Source: a virus. Taken from it: a stretch of DNA of 23,434 bases. Location of the stretch: IMG/VR virus record IMGVR_UViG_3300027816_000415, positions 1 through 23,434 of that record; one strand, given 5' to 3'. Position numbers and translations under genes: made by a program. The notes under the pieces were generated by a model, which made no database searches, was not told the DNA's origin, and saw only the letters and a list, made by a program, of their open reading frames with translations. Of the stretch, positions 1-23,434 are shown piece by piece (the stretch's first letter is position 1; each line of letters starts with the position of its first letter).

Positions 1-2203
1 TAGAACCTGATGTACCATCTGTACCATTAGAACCGCTAGTTCCTGATGTACCTGAAGATCCATCTATACCTGAAGTACCAGAGCTACCGTCTGTACCATT
101 ACTACCACTCGTTCCTGAAGATCCATCTATACCACTTGTTCCTGAACTACCATCAGTACCGTTAGATCCTGATGTACCTGAACTACCATCTGTACCATTA
201 CTACCTGAGGTACCATCAGTACCGTTAGATCCTGATGTTCCGCTTGTTCCAGAAGATCCGTCTGTACCATTTGAACCACTTGTTCCATCTGTACCATTAG
301 ATCCAGACGTACCCGAAGAACCTGAGGTTCCTGAAGATCCATCTATACCACTTGTTCCTGAACTACCATCAGTACCGTTAGATCCTGATGTACCATCTGT
401 ACCATTACTACCTGAGGTACCATCAGTACCGTTAGATCCTGATGTTCCGCTTGTTCCAGAAGATCCGTCCGTACCATTTGAGCCACTTGTTCCATCTGTA
501 CCATTGGATCCTGATGTACCGCTTGTTCCTGAAGATCCATCTATACCACTTGTTCCTGAGCTTCCGTCAGTTCCTGATGTACCTGAACTACCATCCGTTC
601 CTGATGTTCCATCTGTACCTGAAGTACCAGAAGAACCCGAAGAACCATCTGTACCATCCACACCACTAATACCACTTGTTCCTGAAGAACCACTTGTTCC
701 TGAAGAACCATCAATACCACTTGTACCATCAGTACCGTTAGAACCAGAAGTACCTGATGTACCACTTGATCCGTCTGTTCCGCTAGTTCCTGAAGAACCA
801 TCCGTACCATTAGATCCTGAAGTTCCACTTGATCCGTCTGTTCCGCTAGTTCCTGAAGAACCGTCTGTACCGTTTGATCCTGAAGTACCAGAAGAACCTG
901 ATGTACCACTTGTACCAGTTGTAACACCCAAAGGTGTAACAGCATATGAATAGTGTACATCACCCTCTGAGTAGAAAGTCACTGAAGATGTTGCACCTCC
1001 GATGTTTTCTACCAATACTTTAACCAATATTCTATCGGATACATCCAAAGTTGAACCCGAATAGAATGTATCTGTTAATACCATTGTTGGAGATGTACTC
1101 TGAATAAGAGCAAAATCGGTTGTGAATAATAGAGATTGAGTACCACCCGAGCTTATCTTATAAACTTGTGCAGCTGTTTGAACTGGTCCTACTGTTCTTG
1201 ATAAGTGAAAGTAGAATGACCAAATTCCTGAAGGAATAACAGTAACAGCTGGATTACCAAGAGGTGAAATGTATTCACCGAATATTACTGTTTGACCTGT
1301 TAATATTGTATCTGTATATGTTGATTGCGGTAAATTATCCGCATTTGTTCCCAATACTTTGAAAGAACCATCTGTTTCAGACTGATTGAAATAATAAATC
1401 AATCCTGATGCTCTACCGTCCTGTCCTGAAGTTCCTGATGAACCACTGGTCCCTGAGCTTCCATCGGTACCACTTGTACCTGATGATCCATCTATACCAC
1501 TTGTACCTGAGCTTCCATCAGTACCGCTTGTGCCAGACGATCCACTTGTTCCACCCGAAATTACGATTTCTGCTGCACCTGTACCCCCACTGATAACAGT
1601 ACCACCTGAAATAGTAATACCTGTAACCGAAGTTACAGTTGTAACACCATCAGAAACAGATAAATTTCCACCAGATGAAGCTGTGTTAAAAATTCTCCAT
1701 CTAGCATTACTTCTTGTAACACCACTAACACCTTCAATAGTAGACCCTGTCCATGCGTCGATAAAGTTCTGACCTGCAACAGTTGCATTGGTACAGATGA
1801 AGTTGTCACCTGAAGGTACCAAAGCACCTGAAATTTCTGCAGCATCCCAAAGTGCAGGATAGTTGTCAATTTGAAGTTGATAGGTTGTGTCGGCTGATAT
1901 CACATAAACCAACATACCAATTCTACGTCTTCCTGTTGATATCTCATCACTATTGATGTATACCTGATCAGGAACCGCAAATGGTGTATTATAAGCAAAC
2001 TCAATAGGAATAGTATTTGCCGAATTTGTGACTGATCCACCTGGTCCTATTGGATCATAAATTAAGTCTTGGTGCGAATAAACCTCCATGTATCCTCCAA
2101 TGGATAATACAGAGAAGTTTGTACCTTGGGGGTTATCAAGCGCAACCGAATCTGGTCCGTTTAATAACGTTCCCGAGATTGGATTTTTGTACTGAAAGCT
2201 CAT
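1..2203 (-). CDS. Collagen-like tail fibre protein (3' end outside window)
   Basis: The frame is open from an ATG at 2203 to the left edge, giving 734 codons without a stop, so the C-terminus is missing. Residues 1-217 form a non-repetitive N-terminal region, probably the virion attachment part. Residues 218-265 are sixteen Gly-X-Y triplets. Residues 266-429 are a globular, beta-rich domain resembling domains that recur in phage structural proteins (from memory, no family assigned). From residue 430 a second Gly-X-Y block runs to the edge. The triplets are mostly GTS, GSS, GTD, GSN and GID, with no proline, as in other phage collagen-like fibres. Such proteins form trimeric rods, and the lost C-terminus would be the likely receptor-binding tip. 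The leader is A-rich (AAATAAAAAAGAC before the ATG) with no Shine-Dalgarno. It lies 15 bases after the preceding gene, so it is probably cotranscribed. Fibre assignment is confident; the target is unknown. Confidence 0.85.
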   Translation of the reverse strand, partial: MSFQYKNPISGTLLNGPDSVALDNPQGTNFSVLSIGGYMEVYSHQDLIYDPIGPGGSVTNSANTIPIEFAYNTPFAVPDQVYINSDEISTGRRRIGMLVYVISADTTYQLQIDNYPALWDAAEISGALVPSGDNFICTNATVAGQNFIDAWTGSTIEGVSGVTRSNARWRIFNTASSGGNLSVSDGVTTVTSVTGITISGGTVISGGTGAAEIVISGGTSGSSGTSGTDGSSGTSGIDGSSGTSGTDGSSGTSGSSGTSGQDGRASGLIYYFNQSETDGSFKVLGTNADNLPQSTYTDTILTGQTVIFGEYISPLGNPAVTVIPSGIWSFYFHLSRTVGPVQTAAQVYKISSGGTQSLLFTTDFALIQSTSPTMVLTDTFYSGSTLDVSDRILVKVLVENIGGATSSVTFYSEGDVHYSYAVTPLGVTTGTSGTSGSSGTSGSNGTDGSSGTSGTDGSSGTSGSNGTDGSSGTSGTDGSSGTSGTSGSNGTDGTSGIDGSSGTSGSSGTSGISGVDGTDGSSGSSGTSGTDGTSGTDGSSGTSGTDGSSGTSGIDGSSGTSGTSGSNGTDGTSGSNGTDGSSGTSGTSGSNGTDGTSGSNGTDGTSGSNGTDGSSGTSGIDGSSGTSGSSGTSGSNGTDGTSGSNGTDGSSGTSGTSGSNGTDGTSGSNGTDGSSGTSGSNGTDGSSGTSGIDGSSGTSGSNGTDGSSGTSGIDGSSGTSGTSGSNGTDGTSGS
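2..916 (-). repeat. Long Gly-X-Y (collagen-like) coding repeat
   Basis: Glycine codons (GGT or GGA) fall every nine bases at all the positions I checked between 916 and 5, giving about 101 consecutive Gly-X-Y triplets within the window. X and Y are mainly Thr, Ser, Asp and Asn, with some Ile. The low complexity also leaves other frames on both strands open, which creates spurious ORFs. Confidence 0.9.
111..511 (-). repeat. Near-identical direct duplication inside the collagen block
   Basis: Bases 111-304 and 327-511 are near-identical direct copies. They differ by three substitutions that I can see and by one 9-base indel, which is exactly one Gly-X-Y triplet. This looks like a recent duplication followed by loss or gain of a triplet, consistent with slippage or unequal recombination that alters shaft length without breaking the frame. 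Confidence 0.8.
1409..1552 (-). repeat. Short Gly-X-Y block (16 triplets)
   Basis: A first collagen-like segment of 48 residues sits between the N-terminal region and the middle globular domain of the fibre protein. It uses the same GTS/GSS/GTD/GID triplets and ends with GQD-GRA, so the fibre probably has two rod segments separated by a knob. Confidence 0.85.
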
Positions 2204-2218
2204 GTCTTTTTTATTTTT

Positions 2219-3829
2219 TTATATTAGGGTGTTACCTTTAAAGTAAATATCGGAAACTGATGCGTTTATTCTGAAGTCTGTGTTAGTATTTGATGTATAC
2301 ACTCTGTAAGTACCTGCCGGTATTGTACCACCAGTGTATTCAACAGTAATGTTATAGTATGCTGCGGTCATATTTCTTGCTGTAAGCGCGTTTGGATTAC
2401 CCGCGATGTTTGTAGAAATCTGACTAATCTTTTGTCCATTAGTTGCTCCTGTTGAAACGATCCAAGTATACCATGCATTTCCTGCTGTACCACCTGAAAC
2501 TTTTGTTGTTTGGAATAGGTATGCGTTTATCGGATTACCGAAGGCATCGTTACCTCCCGAAGTCGTAGAAATAGGACCTGTCAAGATAGATGGTGCAGTT
2601 ACACCCCATCCTGAGAACGATAGGTAAGCATTAAACTGATCATTGAATGTGGTAGCATTAGCCGTTGTTGGGGTATTGATCCAGAATCCTCTAAACGAAG
2701 ATCCTTGCGATGACATCCATCCGTTGAATTGTGCAGTTGCCGCTTGTGGTTCAATCAATAAATAACCTTGTAATGGAGCTGGTGTTGGTGTTGGCGTTGG
2801 TGTTTCAGTTGGTGTTATTGTTGCCGTTGGCGTTGGAGACTCAGTTGGGGTCATTGTTGGACTCGCTGTGGTTGTAACCGAAGGTGTTGGTGTTGTAGTT
2901 TCAGTTGGTGTTAGAGTTGGCGTTGCAGTTTCTGTTGGAGACGGAGTTTGCGTAACTGTTTCAGTTGGAGTTATAGTTGGTGTTGGAGTTGGGGTCATCG
3001 TCTCAGTCGCGGATGCGGTGATTGAAGGAGTTGGTGTTGGTGTTTCAGTAGATGTTGCCGTTATCGAAGGAGTAGGAGTATTTGTTGGTGTCTCAGTCGG
3101 AGTTGTTGTAGGTGTTTCTGTGTTAGTTGGTGTTACACTTGGTGTGTTTGTAGGCGTCTCAGATGGGGTTGTAGTCGGAGTTTCAGTAGGCGTCTCAGTT
3201 GGTGTTTGAGTTGCAGTTGCTGCTGGTGTTCCTGTTGGTGTTTGAGTTGGTGTTTCAGTAGGTGTTGGCGTTTGAGTTGGTGTCTCACTTGCAGTCTGGG
3301 TTGGTGTTTGAGTTGCAGTTGCTGCTGGTGTTCCTGTTGGCGTTTGAGTTGGTGTCTCACTTGGCGTTGCTGATAATGTAGTTGTTGGTGTCGGTGTAGT
3401 TGTTGGTGTTTGAGAGGTGGTAGGAGTTGGTGTTTGTGTAGGGGTTTCACTCGGAGTAGTCGTCGGAGTTGGCGTAGGTGTCGGAGTTTCTGTTGTACTT
3501 GCAGTAGGAGTCGGGCTAGTTCCAACAGTTGCTGTTGGTGATGGAGTAAGTGTTGGTGTTGGGCTGGCAGTTGGAGTTGGAGTGACACACTCGAAGGTGA
3601 TTACCACACCATTGAACATGTCAGTTCTTGTTTGAGCAGAATAAGCTAAAGTCGCTCCTGTAAGACCTATTGGGAAAGTTGAATAATAAACATCAAATGG
3701 ACCTAAAGCATTCGAATTCGAAGCTAATCGCACTATGTAACTTGTACAGCCTGTTACTGTAAGTTGTTGTTCTATTGAGTTGTCACATCCTGGGGCATTA
3801 TTAACAACGAATATCGAATAAAGACTCAT
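2219..3829 (-). CDS. Virion surface protein with long Thr/Pro-rich linker
   Basis: This 536-residue protein has three parts. Residues 1-82 form a small N-terminal domain with three cysteines (CDNS, TGCTS, FECV). Residues 83 to about 351 are a low-complexity stalk of TPTPT, TETPT and SPTPT units. Residues 352-536 form a globular domain rich in Asn, Thr, Gly and aromatics, ending in an apparent beta-sandwich ([13 protein letters not shown]). Thr/Pro-rich stalks act as stiff extended spacers, so the C-terminal domain is plausibly displayed away from the virion. No enzymatic motif is visible and I do not recognise the C-terminal domain. The ATG start has an A-rich leader and no Shine-Dalgarno. 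The gene lies between a SprB-like protein and a collagen fibre, which supports an adhesin or decoration role (inference). Confidence 0.75.
2777..3583 (-). repeat. Thr/Pro-rich low-complexity stalk repeats
   Basis: This segment encodes the Thr/Pro stalk of the surrounding gene. Within it, bases 3198-3256 and 3300-3358 are near-identical direct copies offset by 102 bases, both encoding [17 protein letters not shown]. The antisense strand reads as a spurious Val/Gly-rich ORF. Confidence 0.8.
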
Positions 3830-3895: not shown

Positions 3896-4288
3896 TCAAG
3901 CTAGAATTACCTCGCAGTTAGGATCCGTTAAACTCAATGATGTAACACAAGAAGCTTCAACGGTTGATAACCCACCAACCTCACAGGATGAGGAACTAAT
4001 TGTAATATCTGTGACACAAGACACTGTATGAATAGTAATCAAGAATGAACATCCGAATCTACATTCTAAAAGTTCCATCCTTTCACAACCATTTGCATCA
4101 ACCATTGTTAAAAGAATGGCAGGTGCAGTAGCAAACACAGATGAAAGGGTCGCACCTGTTTGCGGAGGTATAGGATTACCTGAGGTAATTGTATAAATCA
4201 GGGTCTGATAGTTACCATAAATGTCTGAAACATAAACATTTATTGGGTATGTACCCCCCGTTACTGATAAAATTTCTACTCTTGTCAT
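3896..4288 (-). CDS. Small cysteine-rich protein, partial SprB-like repeat
   Basis: This 130-residue protein follows the SprB-repeat protein with a four-base ATGA overlap, so translation is probably coupled. I chose the ATG at 4288 over a GTG nine bases upstream because of that overlap and an AAGGTG sequence six bases before it. The first 75 residues resemble one degenerate SprB-type unit (VTGGTYPINVYVSD early, TMVDANGC later). The C-terminal half has seven cysteines and an internal duplication: SCVTDITISSSSCEV at residues 90-104 and SCVTSLSLTDPNCEV at 113-127. No signal peptide or enzymatic motif is visible. It may be an accessory of the neighbouring adhesin. The family is not recognised. 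Confidence 0.65.
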   Translation of the reverse strand: MTRVEILSVTGGTYPINVYVSDIYGNYQTLIYTITSGNPIPPQTGATLSSVFATAPAILLTMVDANGCERMELLECRFGCSFLITIHTVSCVTDITISSSSCEVGGLSTVEASCVTSLSLTDPNCEVILA

Positions 4289-6456
4289 GACAAACACCTT
4301 ATGTCGTATAATATAATTAGTTCAACAATCACTTCTTGGTTACCCAAGATGGCTTCCGATCTATCGGTTTCGATTGTAATTTCACTTGTGAGTTCATTAA
4401 TCGTAACTTCTCCAATACCAGGAATTGTTTCGAGTAAAGATTGAACTGTATTATACCACAATGAATCAGGTGCCGCGTCAACTAAACTATTGGATACATA
4501 AAACTCTTGGTCAAGTTCAACACCCAAAGGTTGCACTTCTACTCTTGCAACGAAAGTAGCGGTTACAAGATCACAATTTGTTCTTCCTGATGTGAGCTCG
4601 TCAAATCCACCATTCATTATCTGGGCAAGTCCTCTTTTTGTACCCGCCGCGAATGAGAATGTTTCTTCACCTACCAAGTAAGTTTGATACGAAACATAAT
4701 TTTTATCACAATCGATCACTGTTGATCTCGTTTGACTACATCCAGAAGAATCTATAATCGTAATTGAGTAGGTTCCTGCCGTGAGACCTGTAGCAACGAT
4801 ATCTTGAGGGTTACCCGGTACGTTATCTGACCATTGGTACGTGAATGGTGGAATACCGTCAGATATAAAAGCGGTTATTGAACCATCAGATCCTTGTCCA
4901 CATGATGTTGTGTATAGGTTATAAATCAACGGAACACTTGTATTGACAAATACTTGTTGAGTTTGTGTACAACCTGAAGCATCTGTTACAGTAATTTGGT
5001 GTTGTCCTGAAGAAACGTTCGTAAAAGTTATCGCACTTGCTGTTGTATCTAAAATATTTTGAATTCCATCTAAGGAGTAATCGAATGGAGAAATACCTCC
5101 GACTGATTTTTCAACCAACACAATTCCATTATTTCCAGCACAGGTTGTACCTGTTGTTGTTCCTGTAATTGTAAATGAGTTACTCGAAAGTATTGCGGAT
5201 TCTTGTAAGAAATAGCATCCATTACTATCTTCGAGGATCACAGTGTAGGTACCTCCTGATAGTTCAGTGAATGTATATGAAGCTGCATTAGATGTAATTG
5301 AGAAAGTGGATGCGTCGGGATAAATTAATGTAAACGTGTATGGTGAAGTACCCCCTAAAGCAGTTACTAAAATAGATCCGTCAGCATTACTACATGAACT
5401 TGGATTAACCGATAAAATAATATCAGATATTCCATTTTCAGTGGCTAAATCGATACCCGCACTAAATTTACACAAAGCAGCATCAGTCACTAAGAAATTA
5501 TATGATCCCGCAGGAACTCCACTCAAACTGAAACTCTGTGAATATGACACATCAATTTGTCCTGTGGATGCCGAATAATAATATGGGCCTGTACCGCCAG
5601 TTATTGTCATGGTTATTACACCATCGGAGTTTAAACAAGTAGGAATATTATCTACGACAAATCCTCCAAGACCAACAGGATCTACTTGACCTATTGATTG
5701 TTCCCTAATTTTTGAACATCCGGTTGCATCAGTAACTTTTACTGCGTAAGTACCAGCTGTTAGTCCCGTAAGAGTACTACCAGTTGAACCATCATTCCAA
5801 ATGTAAGTCCATGGTTGTACACCTGTTTGTCCCGTAATAATTAATTTACCTGATGGTTGTCCACACTGTGTATCAGGGACAATATAGAAACCGAAATCAA
5901 CTTCCACAGATGGATTCACAATGAATGTTTGTGTTGTTCCTGTACATCCACCAAAGTCTACTGCCTCAATGTAATATGTTCCCGCAGAAAGTTGTTGGAA
6001 AGTAACGGTTTCAAGTGAAGTTGTTGCTGATTGTAAAAGTTCCCCATTGAAAGTGTAAAGAAAGTAAGCACTCTCTGAAAAGTTAGATGAGTCTTGAACA
6101 GTCACACTTCCATTTGATTGGCTACATGTTGTTGCTGACACGTCTATGATTGTTGCACAGTTTCCTGATGAAACAGGAACGTTGACATCAAACTCCAAGT
6201 TTACAGGCATCGTAGAGTCATTAACTCTGAATGCGTAAGTTCCCGCTGAAAGACCGTTTGCAAATGCATATGTCAAATTAATTGACAATGGATCCAAATA
6301 ATCGTAATTATATGCCAGATAATTCGAATATCCCAATGGTGGTTGCCATTGAACTGTATACGGAGGAGTACCTCCTGAAAATCCGACTTGGATACTTCCA
6401 CTTCCGTTGTTTTGGCAATCGCCCGTGACAAAAACAATGTAATTAAACGACGCCAT
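4285..6456 (-). CDS. Virion protein with about seven SprB-like repeats
   Basis: This 723-residue protein is built from about seven tandem units of roughly 75-90 residues. Each follows the pattern C-x(n)-DGS-x(n)-GGxxPYxYxW, then L-[ST]-AGTY-x(n)-V-x-D-x-x-GC. This is the SprB repeat signature known from Flavobacterium gliding adhesins and other Bacteroidota surface proteins. Clear matches include GGTPPYTVQW with LSAGTYAFRVND, then LTAGTYAVKVTDATGC, then IPPFTYQW with LTAGTYSITIIDSSGC. From about residue 583 a different C-terminal domain of some 140 residues follows (SLVDAAPDSLW at 657-667), resembling the end of the gpI-type protein just upstream. The gene overlaps that gene by 14 bases. I used the ATG at 6456; a GTG at 6462 is an alternative. 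A surface or receptor-binding role is inferred. Confidence 0.8.
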   Translation of the reverse strand: MASFNYIVFVTGDCQNNGSGSIQVGFSGGTPPYTVQWQPPLGYSNYLAYNYDYLDPLSINLTYAFANGLSAGTYAFRVNDSTMPVNLEFDVNVPVSSGNCATIIDVSATTCSQSNGSVTVQDSSNFSESAYFLYTFNGELLQSATTSLETVTFQQLSAGTYYIEAVDFGGCTGTTQTFIVNPSVEVDFGFYIVPDTQCGQPSGKLIITGQTGVQPWTYIWNDGSTGSTLTGLTAGTYAVKVTDATGCSKIREQSIGQVDPVGLGGFVVDNIPTCLNSDGVITMTITGGTGPYYYSASTGQIDVSYSQSFSLSGVPAGSYNFLVTDAALCKFSAGIDLATENGISDIILSVNPSSCSNADGSILVTALGGTSPYTFTLIYPDASTFSITSNAASYTFTELSGGTYTVILEDSNGCYFLQESAILSSNSFTITGTTTGTTCAGNNGIVLVEKSVGGISPFDYSLDGIQNILDTTASAITFTNVSSGQHQITVTDASGCTQTQQVFVNTSVPLIYNLYTTSCGQGSDGSITAFISDGIPPFTYQWSDNVPGNPQDIVATGLTAGTYSITIIDSSGCSQTRSTVIDCDKNYVSYQTYLVGEETFSFAAGTKRGLAQIMNGGFDELTSGRTNCDLVTATFVARVEVQPLGVELDQEFYVSNSLVDAAPDSLWYNTVQSLLETIPGIGEVTINELTSEITIETDRSEAILGNQEVIVELIILYDIRCLS

Positions 6457-9448
6457 TTGCACAATTTATTGAAATGTTTATCCCAACATTGAGTGTTAGA
6501 AGTGTTTGAAGATTTTTTGGTATACAATCCATATTTGTAACGTTCAAAGTGTTTCCATTTAGGAAATAGTTCAACCCATAACGATATAAATTATCTAAAT
6601 TATCTGCCAAACTGTTTTTCCAAAGACTATTAGTAGGTACATCATTCAATCCATCCCCTTGATAGAATGGGTATAGGATTATTTGTTCGTCCCCTAGTTT
6701 TAAATCTACATACCAAGTTGTGGAAAGTGTATTTGTTATACAATCATTCAACGTTAATTCTTCTTCAGCTAAATATGTTTGTAGTGATTGTGCAAGAACC
6801 CCTTGGAAATTTGTGACAGTGCCGTTTCCGTTCAACCATGGGAATACTTTGAATTCAACAAATTCAGTTGAACAATCGTAATTGAAACAACTTCCCACAA
6901 TATAACATGCGTCAGCCGGTACGGGAACAAACTGACATCCTCTTTGTCTTCTGTAAACATACTTCTGTTTTTGGAAGATGGAATTCTCGAATCTTGTACC
7001 TGAATTCCAAATTGTTGTTGCCGGAATCATCTGCTCAACCAACTTCATCCAATAGGGACCTAAGCCCTCAACATAATCAATCAGTTTTTGATATGTGTAA
7101 TTGTTATTTGGTATTCCAATGGTATTTTCCTGTTCCAAATACTTCCAAAATATCGATGAAAGTGTTGGATATCCCCCAGTGTGTCCATCGGTTATGTACA
7201 ATCTATTTCTTACATTAATCGTATTCTGCCAAAATGTCTGTGCAAACTCAAAGAAAGTCTTTTTCTTAGGTTGTGGATTGATGAAAGTCCAATCTACCCC
7301 TCCGATTGTTGGAAAAGGTGTAGTCATTCCTGTTTCAGGAATTGGATAATCATAAAGTCTCGATTGATTCCATACATCATACACCAAACCTTGACCTGGA
7401 TTGAGGTATAAATCAACATTCTTCACATTTAGAACAAGTTTTTCCTTATCAATATAATAATAGGCATCATAACCAGCATCTGTGGAAATTCTAAGATCCT
7501 CATCATCAGAGACCCATGACTTTTTGTTATCAATCGTTTTCTGTAATTTGAATCCCTCAGTCATGTAAGGGAAATCTCTAAATCTTTCTAAATAGATCTG
7601 ACCATAAGTGAAGGGTTCTAAGACAGTTTGGAAAGTAGGGTTGGTTCCTGTGAAAACATTCTCAACTAACGGGATTTCAGGACTCCTATGTTGTGGTGTT
7701 GATTCGTACCAACCCGCTCCAACTTGGAAGAAGTACTCTTCGTTTGGTGTTGGCGCCTTTGGATATCCCTCAATGTCCATAGGAAAGTCAGATAATCCAA
7801 CATTGACCTCCTCTAATATTGTCGTTGATGTGAAAGCACTGTAAACCTGACCTTGAAGCTTATATGTTACTGTTGAAGATAAACTTGGAACATTATCTAC
7901 GTATGTTCCACCTGATATCTTTGCATATTGAACGGCAAATTGATCTAAATTAATTCTTTGATCGGCAACATATATGTTTTCATTGAATTCAATCAACGCT
8001 TCAGGTGCTCCAACCAGTCTCAGAAGAAACTCTACTGATCTTCTCGTACCCTTAGATCTGAATAGATAACCCGAGTTTAGAATAAGATTCCTATAGTATT
8101 GGTAATTCAATTCAGTTGGAGTTAAAGCTCTAGCATAACCCGGGTAAGCCGGTGCATTTGTCTGACCGAACACAGAATCCAAAAAGTTTTCATTTGTAAT
8201 CGGTGATATATTTGGTTCCCAACCTAAAGTCGCGGCTAAATTTTTCAATAACAAAGAAGGAATGTCATTCTGAATGGTGTAATTAACTGAAGTCATATTA
8301 GCCATACCATCAATGAATAATTTAACTTGATCGAAACTCCTACCGTAGATTTGAAGAATCTTTTCAACCTTTCTATCCTTTGTATCAAACTCCTTGAATG
8401 AGTCTTGAATCAAGAAACGCGAGATTAAATTAGTCTTGTACGAATCAAGTTCTTCTGAAACAAATGCAAGTTGTGTTAAGTACTCATCAAAAGCATTGGT
8501 CCTGATGTCCAAGTTCCATGTACCCTCCAAAGGCCAAGTTAAAGTTGTAAAGTTGTTGTAGAACTGACCGTTTTCATCCTCACTAGGCACCTGGAATACC
8601 GCAGTGTAAGGCGGTTCTATCAATCTATTGAGAAGGAATTTTTCAATCTCATCGAATGACTCGGCAAATACTTGGTCCACTACTAAATCATTTGGTCTGA
8701 TGTGGTAGTTGGAAGAATAGGTTGTTGCTGTTGTTCCGAACGGTGATCCCGAAACATAAAATGTTAATGTACCTGTCGCCAAACTATCTGAGGGTTCAAA
8801 AGAAAGGACTTTGAAGATATCGTAAGGGTTACTTGTGTTACCTGTATTCGTGATCGCAACGCAGTAATCAAGATAAGTACTGTTGAGGTTCCTCAACGGT
8901 GATGTTACAATCTCACGGGCTAGTATATTTGTTGCCGCAGAAATCGAATAATCAATCATAAAAGGATTTGTCAATCGATCAACATCAACAGAAAATATTG
9001 TTTCATCGTTTATCCCATCGTAAACAATATTATATGCAGTAAAACCAGTCAAAGATTGTTGGTTCATGAACCTCACATCTAAAGAAGCCGGAAACTTATT
9101 GATAATTCTTGTAACAGATACTTGTAATCTTTTAGCCAAAGAACCATACATAGAGAAGTTGGTAACTTCAGTCAAATCCAAATTCGGATAAACTCTAAAT
9201 TCTTTTGCAAAAATCAATCTGCTCTCCGCAAGTTGATCCACTTGTAAATCTTCTAAACTGATAGGTTTTGAAAAGGCACCAATATTAAATTCACGGTTAA
9301 CTTTTTCTGTAATACCTGTTGTAAATTCGAAATTACCTTGCGTAAGACCTCCACCCTCAACAGTTTGTAAACCTACAATATTGTCGGAGAATGTACCAGC
9401 CCCACTACCAGGTCTAGGTGGATAAAAATATTTTACTTGTTGAGCCAT
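6443..9448 (-). CDS. Baseplate protein with P2 gpI-type tail core
   Basis: This 1001-residue protein contains a recognisable gpI-type core near residues 395-500. It reads LLLKNLAATLGWEP, a gap with a small insertion, then YYRNLILNSGYLFRSKGTRRSVEFLLRLVG (RSKGTRR at 464-470). This is the pattern of phage tail protein I: a 'LP-LA-LG-' segment followed by helices ending in a (R/K)KGT turn. gpI works with the gp25/W and J/gp6 proteins in the baseplate wedge of simple contractile tails, and both relatives are encoded upstream here. The protein is far longer than P2 gpI (about 180 residues), with large extensions on both sides. The last 140 residues resemble the C-terminal domain of the SprB-repeat protein. 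The start ATG overlaps the preceding stop by one base (TAATG). Baseplate role is fairly sure; function of the extensions is unknown. Confidence 0.7.
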   Translation of the reverse strand: MAQQVKYFYPPRPGSGAGTFSDNIVGLQTVEGGGLTQGNFEFTTGITEKVNREFNIGAFSKPISLEDLQVDQLAESRLIFAKEFRVYPNLDLTEVTNFSMYGSLAKRLQVSVTRIINKFPASLDVRFMNQQSLTGFTAYNIVYDGINDETIFSVDVDRLTNPFMIDYSISAATNILAREIVTSPLRNLNSTYLDYCVAITNTGNTSNPYDIFKVLSFEPSDSLATGTLTFYVSGSPFGTTATTYSSNYHIRPNDLVVDQVFAESFDEIEKFLLNRLIEPPYTAVFQVPSEDENGQFYNNFTTLTWPLEGTWNLDIRTNAFDEYLTQLAFVSEELDSYKTNLISRFLIQDSFKEFDTKDRKVEKILQIYGRSFDQVKLFIDGMANMTSVNYTIQNDIPSLLLKNLAATLGWEPNISPITNENFLDSVFGQTNAPAYPGYARALTPTELNYQYYRNLILNSGYLFRSKGTRRSVEFLLRLVGAPEALIEFNENIYVADQRINLDQFAVQYAKISGGTYVDNVPSLSSTVTYKLQGQVYSAFTSTTILEEVNVGLSDFPMDIEGYPKAPTPNEEYFFQVGAGWYESTPQHRSPEIPLVENVFTGTNPTFQTVLEPFTYGQIYLERFRDFPYMTEGFKLQKTIDNKKSWVSDDEDLRISTDAGYDAYYYIDKEKLVLNVKNVDLYLNPGQGLVYDVWNQSRLYDYPIPETGMTTPFPTIGGVDWTFINPQPKKKTFFEFAQTFWQNTINVRNRLYITDGHTGGYPTLSSIFWKYLEQENTIGIPNNNYTYQKLIDYVEGLGPYWMKLVEQMIPATTIWNSGTRFENSIFQKQKYVYRRQRGCQFVPVPADACYIVGSCFNYDCSTEFVEFKVFPWLNGNGTVTNFQGVLAQSLQTYLAEEELTLNDCITNTLSTTWYVDLKLGDEQIILYPFYQGDGLNDVPTNSLWKNSLADNLDNLYRYGLNYFLNGNTLNVTNMDCIPKNLQTLLTLNVGINISINCANGVV

Positions 9449-19363: not shown

Positions 19364-21202
19364 TTAAGAGAACTGAACGTTTTGGAAGTTCTTCACTTTC
19401 ACTCTGATATCTTTGTTTGGATATCTTATTTGATACACCTGATTTGGTTGTGCAAATATGGTATCATCTACAGGTCTTATCTGTCTTGTAACATCGTTTG
19501 AATATGCCATTGAAGTTTGGAACCCTGAATATTGTCCTCCTACCTCATTGAATACATCGATGGCTGTTACGGTTATAACACCGTTCTCATCTTGAATCAA
19601 ACTGTTCAATTGTGAGATGTATATGTTTTGACCTAAGTTTCTGATCTGCGGATCTAAGAAAGTAGAAACCTTATTAATGATATTAGTAATAACTTGTCCT
19701 TGGTTTTGTGTGGCATCTAAGACAACCGAAATATCTAAACTTAAATCGATAACTTCCGCAGTTTCAATAGAAATGTAGTCGTTCATCATTCTATAGTTTG
19801 ATAGATAGTTTGCCAAGTTTTGTTTCAAGGTGTTCGAAACAATAGAAGTCAATTTACCTGTAGTGTCGTATGATAATATCTGAACGTTGATTTTGTTGTT
19901 GTTCTCCGTGATTGCAACTTTTGCAGGTGCTCCGAATTGAGAAGGCATCTTTCTTATCAAAGCTTCATAATCATTAACAGTTACCGCTCTGTTCTGTGAG
20001 GAAAAGTTGAATGCTACGTAGTTTCTTGTTTCTTCTACTGAAGGTTGTCCCGCTCCACCGATTGCAGCTGTAACGTTATTACATCTAAGTGAACTTGTTA
20101 CTTGTTGGTTAATATTATCTGAAGGTCCGTTCACAAAGAAACTTACGGTTCCAACCTGATTGATAACGTTTGTACCTAAGTTTGTAGATAAACCACCACC
20201 TGTTCTATATTGAACAAACAATGTTGTGTTCGCTCTCAAAGCAGAACCTAAAGACATATTGTTTTGATACAGTTGTAGATTCAATGGAACTCCTAAAGTT
20301 GTGAATTGATTCAAAGCGTCTTGTGATGTATTTGTACCACCACCAAAAGTCATCTTGAGAAATCCTTCAGGTGTATATTCTGTAATGAATCTATCGTTTG
20401 TTTGGATGTACTTACCAACTTTGATTCCAGGCTGATCAGACACTTTGGTAGGATCTTCAACAAAAATTCTGTCCTCAGCTAAAGCATCCACTTCGTACCA
20501 CCTATTGTCTACCCCTAAAAACTCATTAACTGTTGGTACTGTTGTATAACTTGTACCATCTTTCAGAAGTACACTTGTAACTCCAAGAACATTTTTTTCA
20601 GGTAGGAATAACTCCAAGAATGGTCTTACATCGGCTGGTCCAATAACTCTTTTGAATACTTTGGTGATACCGTTAACAACGACCTCTCTTTTAGTAATTG
20701 TATAGTTAACAATTCTATTACTTGAGTCGAAATTTGGAATCTTAAGTCTGTTTGGAAATCCTTGTGAATTATATGGTGAAGCAAAATCAATATCTTCAAC
20801 ATTCTCAAAAACTTGTCCTGCACCTACAACTTGAGATCCTCTTCTGAGTTGTCCCAAATATCTTTCATCTTCTTTGTCTCCAAATGCTGGAACTGTGATA
20901 GAAAAATCTACAAGAGCAACAGATGGTCTTTGTCCCGGTATTTTCAGACCATAAGTTCTGGCGATATTATAAATTGAAGACCTCTGTTGTGCATATTGTA
21001 ATACGGTCTCTTGTATACTTCTATCAATGTGATAGTGTAAGTTGTCGGCTACGGCTGCGTTCAAATCTAAGAATACTGAAAATACAGAAGCGTCATTGAA
21101 GTTCTGTATAAGTTCAGGGTAATAAGTTCGAACATATTGTATGAGTTCTTCCCTTATACCTTCAAAGTCTCTGGTTGTATATGAAATTTTACGATTAGCC
21201 AT
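19364..21202 (-). CDS. Baseplate wedge protein, gp6/J family
   Basis: This 612-residue protein is close in length to T4 gp6 (660). The N-terminus is typical of the gp6/J family: SYTTRDFEGIREELIQYVR at 7-25, then DASVFSVFLDLNAAVADNLHYHIDRS at 37-62, and QRSSIYNIARTYGLKIPGQRPS at 73-94. These helices lead into a beta-rich middle. A C-terminal part resembling the J-type 'RAVTVNDYEALIRKMPSQFGAPAKV' region follows the central domain. In contractile tails the protein dimerises to form the wedge ring of the baseplate that links gp25 and the peripheral proteins and opens when the sheath contracts. It starts five bases after the gp25-like gene, the same order as 25-6 in T4 and W-J in P2. No Shine-Dalgarno is present. 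Confidence 0.88.
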   Translation of the reverse strand: MANRKISYTTRDFEGIREELIQYVRTYYPELIQNFNDASVFSVFLDLNAAVADNLHYHIDRSIQETVLQYAQQRSSIYNIARTYGLKIPGQRPSVALVDFSITVPAFGDKEDERYLGQLRRGSQVVGAGQVFENVEDIDFASPYNSQGFPNRLKIPNFDSSNRIVNYTITKREVVVNGITKVFKRVIGPADVRPFLELFLPEKNVLGVTSVLLKDGTSYTTVPTVNEFLGVDNRWYEVDALAEDRIFVEDPTKVSDQPGIKVGKYIQTNDRFITEYTPEGFLKMTFGGGTNTSQDALNQFTTLGVPLNLQLYQNNMSLGSALRANTTLFVQYRTGGGLSTNLGTNVINQVGTVSFFVNGPSDNINQQVTSSLRCNNVTAAIGGAGQPSVEETRNYVAFNFSSQNRAVTVNDYEALIRKMPSQFGAPAKVAITENNNKINVQILSYDTTGKLTSIVSNTLKQNLANYLSNYRMMNDYISIETAEVIDLSLDISVVLDATQNQGQVITNIINKVSTFLDPQIRNLGQNIYISQLNSLIQDENGVITVTAIDVFNEVGGQYSGFQTSMAYSNDVTRQIRPVDDTIFAQPNQVYQIRYPNKDIRVKVKNFQNVQFS

Positions 21203-21207
21203 TTATG

Positions 21208-21669
21208 TTAAATATTGATGATTACAAAATCACTGGTCGCAAATGTCGAATCTTGGATTGAGTACTCTATTTTTATTTTCGCAGTATATTCTGCAGTTCC
21301 TTTACCAGGGTATCTGTAAATTTGAGATGTCTGAGAGTTTACCTCCAATTGATCGGGTGACTCCTCTTTCGGATCTAATGGTTCGATCGTAATTCTATTA
21401 AGTAACAGGTTTGGAATATATTTCTCAACATTCGCCCTTATGTCTGATTCAATAGCATCAAAAGTCAAACCATCCATAGGTTCGAAAATGTATTCATACA
21501 ACCTCGTTCCAAAGTCAGGTAGAAAATATCTTGCCCCTTTTCTCGTCAATAGAAGATTAATAAGATCCGCTCTTATTTCTTGATTTGCAGTATTAGTCAA
21601 ATCTAAGTAGTCACCTCTAACTGAATCACGAAAAGGAAAATTTATACCATATGTAGTACCGTCTCCCAT
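21208..21669 (-). CDS. Baseplate wedge protein, gp25/W (GPW) family
   Basis: This 153-residue protein matches the gp25/GPW family in length and sequence. NQEIRADLINLLLTRKGARYFLPDFGTRLYEYIFEP (residues 29-64) is the hallmark segment: an LLLT(x)KGxR turn, then PDFG(x)xLxxxIFEP. FDAIESDIRANVEKYIPNLLLNRI then follows, with IEPLDP where many members carry an EPR core motif. In T4 and P2 the protein sits at the baseplate wedge core, contacts the first sheath ring and helps trigger contraction. Despite the historical 'lysozyme' label of the family, no lysozyme catalytic pattern is visible. The gene follows a 21-base gap that carries the TATTTAT motif and precedes the gp6-like gene by five bases. Confidence 0.9.
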   Translation of the reverse strand: MGDGTTYGINFPFRDSVRGDYLDLTNTANQEIRADLINLLLTRKGARYFLPDFGTRLYEYIFEPMDGLTFDAIESDIRANVEKYIPNLLLNRITIEPLDPKEESPDQLEVNSQTSQIYRYPGKGTAEYTAKIKIEYSIQDSTFATSDFVIINI

Positions 21670-21690: not shown

Positions 21691-21888
21691 TTATTTTTCA
21701 ATTAAAGTAATAGTACCCCTTACGTGTTTAGGTTCATAGGGACAATGTCTACATCCTGATCCACAACAAAATCCTCTCCTTGCATGCCACTCTTCCGTAA
21801 AAACTTTCTTATCACCTTCCATATAAAAGTCAGAAGGGAGAAGTTGTTTCTTCTCCCCCTGACTGGTGTTCTTTATTTCTTTGGACAT
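21691..21888 (-). CDS. Small cysteine-rich protein, DUF5522-like
   Basis: This 65-residue protein has a charged N-terminal half, then VFTEEWHARRGFCCGSGCRHCPYEP. The RG(F/Y)CCGSGCRHCPY pattern is that of DUF5522, small proteins I associate with Bacteroidota. Its CCxxxCxxC spacing also resembles the eukaryotic and bacterial 'oxidoreductase-like' motif (CCGxGCxxC). Four clustered cysteines plus a histidine suggest metal or Fe-S binding, but no function is established that I know of. The start codon overlaps the stop of the ribonucleotide reductase gene by one base (TAATG), so the two are probably translated together. A link to nucleotide reduction is possible but unproven. It may be a host-derived auxiliary gene. 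Confidence 0.7.
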   Translation of the reverse strand: MSKEIKNTSQGEKKQLLPSDFYMEGDKKVFTEEWHARRGFCCGSGCRHCPYEPKHVRGTITLIEK

Positions 21889-23434
21889 TATGCCATTACT
21901 ATTTCACAAGCACCTCCCGCACAAGCAACTTCGCCTGATAGGTCTGTGTTATCGTCAGCCTCAACAATCTTTGAGAGGTCAACGTCTTTGAGAGTTTCCA
22001 TCAACTCTTCATATTTTTCTTTAGTACAATCTTCGAATGGAGCTTGAATGTATGTTCCACCATCGTAAGGTAAAACAGAAAGACCATTATAGTGTTCTCT
22101 GTTTTCCCACATCCACTCACCTACCGCTGGCCACTCGTGTTCTCTGATTGAGATTGTTGCTGATACGTTGTGAGTATTGCTTCCTGTTCTGTGTCCACCT
22201 TTAACCCATTCAAGATGTACCTTCTTAACTCTTTCCAATAATTGAATTGGTGATTCGTTTCTTAGGATTGATCCTTCAGGTGCTTTTTGAGGGATTCCGA
22301 TTACCGCAGTGTCGTGTGGTCTGAAATATTCATCCTCAATTAATTCAGGATGGTTATTCTTTAGGTGAGTATAAATTGCTTCATTCTTACCTACTCTCAC
22401 TCTTCTGATGTAGTAGTCGTTGTGCCATGCGTGGATTCCTGATGATGTACCCAATGTAAGTGAAGTTGTACCTGCTGGTTTTACAGTTGTACATCTTGCC
22501 GCTTTATTGATACCAAGAATAGTTGCAACTCTTTCGTTCTCTTCTTTAACAACTTTAGCCGCCGCTTTCATATTCAAACCAAGAACCGCACCTGATCCGA
22601 TACCTGTCATTGAGATACCAACAAGAGCATCTTTCTCTGTTGTTCTTTGCCAAATTGGTCTTAGATAATGGAAGTCTGTGTAACCTGCCTGAAGTGTTCC
22701 AATGAACGCTGCAGCTTTTACTCTTGCTTCGTAATCTTCTTGAGATACCACATTAGATACGTTTACTTCTGTAAGGTTACAGAATTGGAAAGGACGAAGT
22801 GCGATCTCACAACAAGGATTGGTTCCCCAATCTTTATCATTACTCAAATAGATACCAGGTTCACCAGCACCACTTGCTTCGATTCTTTTCCACAGATCCA
22901 TAAAGTAATCTTTATCGATCTTGTGTCTCATCAGAGTTACAGAGTTGTTAGCTCTTCCTCTTTGTGGATTTGTTTCCCACCAAGCGCCACTCTTACAACC
23001 AATCATCTCATCATCAGATGCTGAGAATAAAGAGATAAGAGCTGCTCTTCTAATACCACCTGCAAGAACTGCGTCTGCAATATGACAAACCATATCATGA
23101 ACTTCGATTGGTCTGAGTTTTTCACCATCTTGTTTTGATTCCAAGATTCCCTCAAGTTTGATAAGACATTCTTTCAAAGGTTGAGGACCGGGAGCTTTAC
23201 CACCTGATGTTACAAGACGTGCTCCTTTTGGTCTGATATCTGAAAAATCAAATTCAATTTTTGAACCACCGAAGAAGTAAGATTTGATAAGAACCTTAAC
23301 GGCATCTGCCCATCCTTCAATAGAGTCAGCAACTAACCATCTTCTTCCTCTTTCTTGATTAGGTTTTCTAATCTCAGGTAGTTGTTCTACGTGATGTTTT
23401 TGTACTGAGTAGCCAACACCTGTTCCACCTAATA
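21888..23434 (-). CDS. nrdJ: Class II (B12-dependent) ribonucleotide reductase, 5' part missing
   Basis: The frame is open to the right edge, so 514 C-terminal codons are visible and the N-terminus lies outside. A TTG at 23177 is not the start, because coding continues upstream with GGTGVGYSVQKHHVEQLPEI and WADAVKVLIKSYFFGG, typical of this family. The enzyme reduces ribonucleotides to deoxyribonucleotides using an adenosylcobalamin-generated thiyl radical. NPCCEI carries the presumed thiyl cysteine (codon 22812-22814) and the catalytic glutamate (22806-22808). FCNLTEVN holds the second active-site cysteine (22779-22781). The C-terminal CAGGAC has the cysteine pair that re-reduces the active site, spaced as C731/C736 in the Lactobacillus leichmannii enzyme. 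It resembles the monomeric RTPR type, which needs no activating partner. It supplies dNTPs for phage replication, yet here it adjoins baseplate genes. Confidence 0.9.
   Translation of the reverse strand, partial: LGGTGVGYSVQKHHVEQLPEIRKPNQERGRRWLVADSIEGWADAVKVLIKSYFFGGSKIEFDFSDIRPKGARLVTSGGKAPGPQPLKECLIKLEGILESKQDGEKLRPIEVHDMVCHIADAVLAGGIRRAALISLFSASDDEMIGCKSGAWWETNPQRGRANNSVTLMRHKIDKDYFMDLWKRIEASGAGEPGIYLSNDKDWGTNPCCEIALRPFQFCNLTEVNVSNVVSQEDYEARVKAAAFIGTLQAGYTDFHYLRPIWQRTTEKDALVGISMTGIGSGAVLGLNMKAAAKVVKEENERVATILGINKAARCTTVKPAGTTSLTLGTSSGIHAWHNDYYIRRVRVGKNEAIYTHLKNNHPELIEDEYFRPHDTAVIGIPQKAPEGSILRNESPIQLLERVKKVHLEWVKGGHRTGSNTHNVSATISIREHEWPAVGEWMWENREHYNGLSVLPYDGGTYIQAPFEDCTKEKYEELMETLKDVDLSKIVEADDNTDLSGEVACAGGACEIVMA

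Follow-up and report, generated by a model that had tools for sequence, protein, structure and literature searches.

The gene at positions 4285 to 6456 on the minus strand of the window (the whole stretch analysed, an IMG/VR virus record of 23,434 bases) encodes a 723-residue SprB-repeat protein, identified by its open reading frame, its Pfam SprB match and synteny. This protein, which we call the rod, is quite probably a core structural component of the tail adsorption apparatus in widespread, large T4-like phages of Bacteroidota. Sequence comparison and structural modelling give it seven units in fixed order, a near-fixed length, a constant linkage to a 1001-residue neighbour and a C-terminal domain shared with that neighbour. 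The data best fit an old, standard part of the tail, not a recently stolen host adhesin or a mimic of one. Little is known about how large phages attach to uncultured freshwater Bacteroidota, and with about 200 loci, a fixed architecture and an obligate partner, the rod becomes a testable tail component and a marker gene for the group.

Seven SprB-type units and a shared C-terminal domain

The rod consists of seven units of about 76-98 residues each, followed by a non-repeat C-terminal domain of 140 residues. A preliminary description made from the DNA letters alone had claimed SprB-type repeats and proposed both a Pfam search and a structure prediction as checks. Pfam SprB (PF13573) matches the rod in four stretches with an E-value of 4.3e-22 and 77.9 bits, well above the gathering cut-off of 28, which places it in the SprB repeat domain family, and the same search of 14 control genomes gave no match. 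When aligned individually by hhalign to a profile of Bacteroidota SprB units, 7/7 units match with probabilities of 97.4-99.6%: unit 1 (residues 1-98, positions 6163 to 6456, 98.8%), unit 2 (residues 99-185, 5902 to 6162, 97.4%), unit 3 (residues 186-262, 5671 to 5901, 99.6%), unit 4 (residues 263-343, 5428 to 5670, 99.5%), unit 5 (residues 344-427, 5176 to 5427, 99.6%), unit 6 (residues 428-507, 4936 to 5175, 99.3%) and unit 7 (residues 508-583, 4708 to 4935, 99.6%), all on the minus strand, with the best Pfam stretch in unit 7. Six control stretches of a neighbouring protein did not match the SprB-unit profile (probability about 3% or less). The signature quoted earlier for the repeats, GGxxPYxYxW ... 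L-AGTY-V-D-GC, can be read clearly in five units (1, 3, 4, 5, 7), while units 2 and 6 have a degenerate form of it; since all seven units, including the two degenerate ones, match the profile and the controls do not, the original observation stands, and its "about seven" units are by alignment exactly seven.

Each unit is specific to its position. Units at the same position share 44-62% identity between phages, versus 23-36% at different positions, and rod units resemble same-position units most even in phages that are only 39% identical overall. A FastTree of 223 units recovered pure clades for six positions (unit 5 among them) and, for unit 6, one clade with 9/10 of its rows, while in a more careful IQ-TREE analysis of 64 units five positions were recovered as starred clades, with supports of 100/99 for unit 1, 99/98 for unit 2, 97/94 for unit 3, 99/98 for unit 4 and 97/87 for unit 7, and unit 5 was not resolved. 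These trees rest on 73 columns, too few for the deep branches, and the units may stem from one phage capture or from several.

The AlphaFold model of the rod (mean pLDDT 82, pTM 0.38) predicts seven beta-sandwiches and an alpha/beta end, that is, a chain of beta-sandwiches whose relative angles are uncertain. Its top solved match in Foldseek is the grappling-hook protein GhpA of Aureispira, a Bacteroidota surface protein (E 7e-21), and its top viral match is A0A6J5LD72 (UniProt/BFVD), a "SprB repeat" protein of an uncultured Caudovirales phage (E 1e-64). The latter is 714 residues long, is 32% identical to the rod over its full length and probably belongs to the same family, so that the rod family is already present in databases under a name assigned automatically. 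Our literature search found no paper on a phage "SprB repeat" rod family. The rod is of a known general kind, the Ig-like-domain phage protein, and is a distinct SprB-type variety of it with a phage-specific, docking-like domain.

This alpha/beta domain (residues 584-723; 4285 to 4707 with the stop codon, minus strand) aligns by hhalign with the C-terminus of the upstream 1001-residue tail protein (E 1.9e-6 with probability 89.7%; probabilities overall 77-90%), and the two aligned C-termini end together. Among 47 tiles of six neighbouring families only the C-terminus of the 1001-residue protein stands out (E 6e-6; next non-overlapping tile 0.016), and separate AlphaFold models of both C-termini have the same order of elements, strand-helix-strand-strand-helix-strand-strand-strand. 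Used alone as a query, the rod domain retrieves 203 viral loci; none of 74 bacterial matches covers it beyond a short overlap at its start, and by sequence it has no match among solved structures. The upstream protein (6443 to 9448, minus strand; C-terminal domain at about 6443-6862), an obligate neighbour by synteny, matches nothing in PHROG, Pfam or the PDB by sequence. Its AlphaFold model has a mean pLDDT of 46 and is confident only in the C-terminal and roughly the 100-340 regions, and a fold search with this low-confidence model gave no match. The rod and the 1001-residue protein, adjacent and obligate partners, each end in a copy of this domain, which suggests that it links the two. One near-identical relative (L006, 10001-12055) has a 41-residue in-frame deletion inside the rod C-terminal domain, which may be a real variant or an assembly error.

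A fixed member of the tail block

The major genes of the window all lie on the minus strand, in the order B12-type ribonucleotide reductase, gp25, gp6, a 1764-residue protein, four proteins of 262-580 residues, the 1001-residue protein and the rod, followed by a 133-residue protein, a Thr/Pro-linker protein and a collagen-like protein. The gp25-like (21208 to 21669; PHROG 261, E 1.6e-17) and gp6-like (19364 to 21202; PHROG 219, E 4.9e-27) proteins are homologues of baseplate wedge proteins. The rod frame starts with the ATG at 6456, or possibly with an in-frame GTG at 6462, and stops at 4285-4287. Its ATG sits within the end of the 1001-residue gene with an overlap of 14 bases and its stop overlaps the start of the 133-residue gene by 4 bases as ATGA, which places the rod in an operon 1001-rod-133 with the arrangement of translational coupling. 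The earlier assignment of the gene to a tail cluster is therefore borne out by the wedge genes upstream on the same strand and by the overlaps with both neighbours. The 133-residue protein (3896 to 4288, minus strand) contains one short DANGC-type motif and matches the SprB profile weakly, over 14 columns only, and on that ground we rejected it as a homologue of the SprB units; the N-terminal domain of the Thr/Pro-linker protein was likewise rejected, having no profile match. The reductase gene at 21888-23432 adjoins gp25, and at its position two relatives, G001 and G006 (L258, 5042-8434), carry ORFs of 808 and 315 residues that, judged by eye, look like a different reductase class.

A first scan found rod relatives, complete or almost so, in 16 virus contigs, down to 38% identity, and an alignment-based scan found 461 similar stretches, of which the best 80 of 461 were kept. 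About 80 contigs share the same six upstream genes, whose lengths hardly vary. Searching from the 1001-residue gene, the rod gene lies directly downstream in 78/80 loci, and in the remaining two the contig stops at that point; in other words, 78/78 contigs reaching past that gene carry a rod. Complete copies are nearly all 709-731 residues long, with one of 684 and a minority of 742-1133. Those longer copies that were inspected have the core of the others, extended by a Thr/Pro (TPTPT) linker and, in most of them, by a different tip. The rod is thus a fixed part of the tail block, and a variable repeat array is not the pattern. The longer genes are those of L044, L047, L052, L057, L082, L085 and L092; that of L052 ends in the linker, and that of L057 is classed as longer by length only. 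Elsewhere in the block, small Cys-containing ORFs inserted between conserved tail genes (L009, 5382-6062; L014, 5643-6167) are, judged by eye, possibly HNH endonucleases.

Phage group and host

The largest related contigs measure 317 and 326 kb. A gp23-type capsid gene is present in 6/14 related contigs searched, four of these six being among the five longest. The remaining contigs are fragments, from which its absence says little, and the window is not long enough to contain it. With gp6 and gp25 in the window and gp23 in relatives, the rod-bearing phages are T4-like.

These phages probably infect Bacteroidota. None of 12 window genes has a Shine-Dalgarno-like motif upstream, and genes lacking this motif are usual in Bacteroidota; moreover, of 74 bacterial records that contain similar repeats, 72 name a Bacteroidota taxon in their title. 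The preliminary description held that the repeats point strongly to such a host. The host itself remains probable on these two lines, but the repeats are a weaker pointer than was claimed, because the fibritin whisker of Citrobacter phage KKP_3664 also scores above the Pfam SprB cut-off, and SprB matches are therefore not specific to Bacteroidota. A "SprB repeat" in a phage is proof neither of host mimicry nor of a Bacteroidota host. The 1001-residue protein has no match in bacterial genomes, and it and the 1764-residue protein led to no cultured relatives.

Fibre genes downstream

Downstream of the operon lies a fibre-like protein (2219 to 3829, minus strand) with a conserved 83-residue N-terminus, a long Thr/Pro linker and a variable C-terminal tip. 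Between the window and one relative (L007) its N-terminus is 94% identical and its tip 58%; by sequence this gene evolves as expected of an adhesive fibre and is likely a modular one. It is followed by a collagen-like fibre protein (2 to 2203, minus strand; Pfam Collagen E 2e-50), which runs off the contig. Many related contigs also stop within collagen-like repeats, and such ends are probably assembly breaks. In the same region, the collagen-like fibre of relative L099 has a Peptidase_S74 chaperone at its end, and such chaperones are a hallmark of tail fibres. Further downstream, G001 carries fibre and sugar genes. After its fibre genes (L257, 14263-17129) are two GT7-type glycosyltransferases fused to laminin-G domains, near an epimerase and a radical SAM protein and adjoined by Ser/Thr-rich fibre genes, and virion glycosylation is a possible function of this arrangement.

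Proposed role in adsorption

We propose that the rod is present in the virion as an extended structure of seven SprB/Ig-type beta-sandwich domains, ending in the domain that it shares with the 1001-residue protein. This domain would dock the rod to that protein or to a joint assembly, and the rod would carry or space the tips that contact the host, which are fused to its C-terminus in some relatives and encoded in most as the separate linker-tip and collagen-like fibres. The simplest reading is that the rod positions these tips. More tentatively, the whole might form an adsorption apparatus built around an SprB-fold rod and docked by a domain duplicated from the neighbouring tail protein, with this scaffolding holding exchangeable tips that are maybe glycosylated by transferases which the phage encodes nearby. 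If so, SprB-type folds would be a building material common to host gliding adhesins and phage tails.

A possible head or neck location

The alternative that survives best, although we consider it unlikely, is that the rod resembles Hoc or fibritin in decorating the head or forming a neck whisker, with Ig-like domains that attach loosely to the environment and aid capture or dispersal. Such a location is possible because both Hoc and the KKP_3664 whisker contain strings of Ig-like domains. In T4 Hoc a row of Ig domains is followed by a C-terminal capsid-binding domain (PMC10385173); the rod is alike in having an Ig-like string and a distinct C-terminal domain, and the best PHROG match of the rod is to Hoc-like head decoration (PHROG 2973, E 3e-11), a match that covers only the Ig-like part. 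The whisker of KKP_3664, a Pseudotevenvirus and similar to the rod-bearing phages in being T4-like, is likewise a virion protein with Ig-like domains that score as SprB, and its gene lies between gp12 and gp13 (L255, 2213-4774). Among solved structures, the "neck whiskers protein gp24" (9occ) is a weak match to the rod. However, the KKP_3664 whisker has a fibritin N-terminus and a Fibritin_C domain, whereas the rod has neither, and the same searches that detect PHROG 1056 and Pfam Fibritin_C in KKP_3664 find neither of them in the rod. The rod is also longer than Hoc, and its C-terminal domain resembles a neighbouring tail protein and, by sequence, not a known capsid-binding or fibritin domain. 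Furthermore, domain number varies among Hoc-like proteins (PMC10385173), yet in the rod it is fixed at seven. Finally, the rod gene lies in a baseplate and fibre block, and we rejected its equivalence with the whisker (wac) locus since the genes read further downstream in G001 are the fibre and sugar genes, not neck genes.

Possible receptor binding by the rod itself

A second alternative, which we regard as quite improbable, is that the rod is itself the receptor-binding fibre and that its SprB-type units directly contact glycans or surface proteins of the host. Binding to glycans or proteins is common among Ig-like units, and units 1 and 2 of the rod diverge somewhat faster than units 3 and 7. 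Nevertheless, the rod is conserved fairly evenly along its length, at a level near that of other tail proteins and with no hypervariable tip, whereas the tip of the linker-tip protein clearly evolves faster than its N-terminus (58% versus 94% identity); in addition, no glycan-binding site was identified in the rod.

Relation to host SprB adhesins

The preliminary description also proposed that the protein could mimic the host surface or bind the partners of SprB. The rod units are indeed homologous to those of Bacteroidota SprB adhesins such as Flavobacterium SprB and Aureispira GhpA, with which they share family and fold, and among solved structures the best match is a surface protein from this phylum. 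In F. johnsoniae, SprB and the other T9SS effectors carry both a Sec signal peptide and, C-terminally, a sorting domain (PMC12618676). The rod differs from the bacterial proteins in the sorting domain: Pfam finds no CHU_C domain, and Por_Secre_tail falls below its cut-off and lies in unit 2 instead of at the C-terminus. By inspection only, its N-terminus (MASFNYIVFVTGDC) shows no evident basic and hydrophobic signal core. The rod also differs in unit number, which is fixed at seven, whereas one open frame holds 5-69 full units in the bacterial SprB proteins used for comparison (all with five or more), and nearest-unit identity is 35% in the phages versus a bacterial median of 45%. We rejected host mimicry and recent capture on the fixed length, the position-specific units and the missing sorting domain, and the proposal of surface mimicry or SprB-partner binding is not supported either, the gene being an obligate member of the tail block. 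That the phage acquired a host-type adhesin for surface display, mimicry, superinfection exclusion or binding of SprB partners is accordingly the least probable of the readings, and barely so at all, given units that are old and fixed by position and a phage-specific C-terminal domain found in 0/74 bacterial matches.

A protein of the host type does occur in LR756502, a 642 kb record named as a phage (L256, 13417-18429). It has 13 Pfam SprB stretches, and the same Pfam search that found no sorting domain above cut-off in the rod finds PKD and CHU_C T9SS domains in it. We rejected it as a member of the rod family on these domains, its 13 stretches and its non-tail neighbours, which are topoisomerase, SpoVR and glutamate synthase genes.
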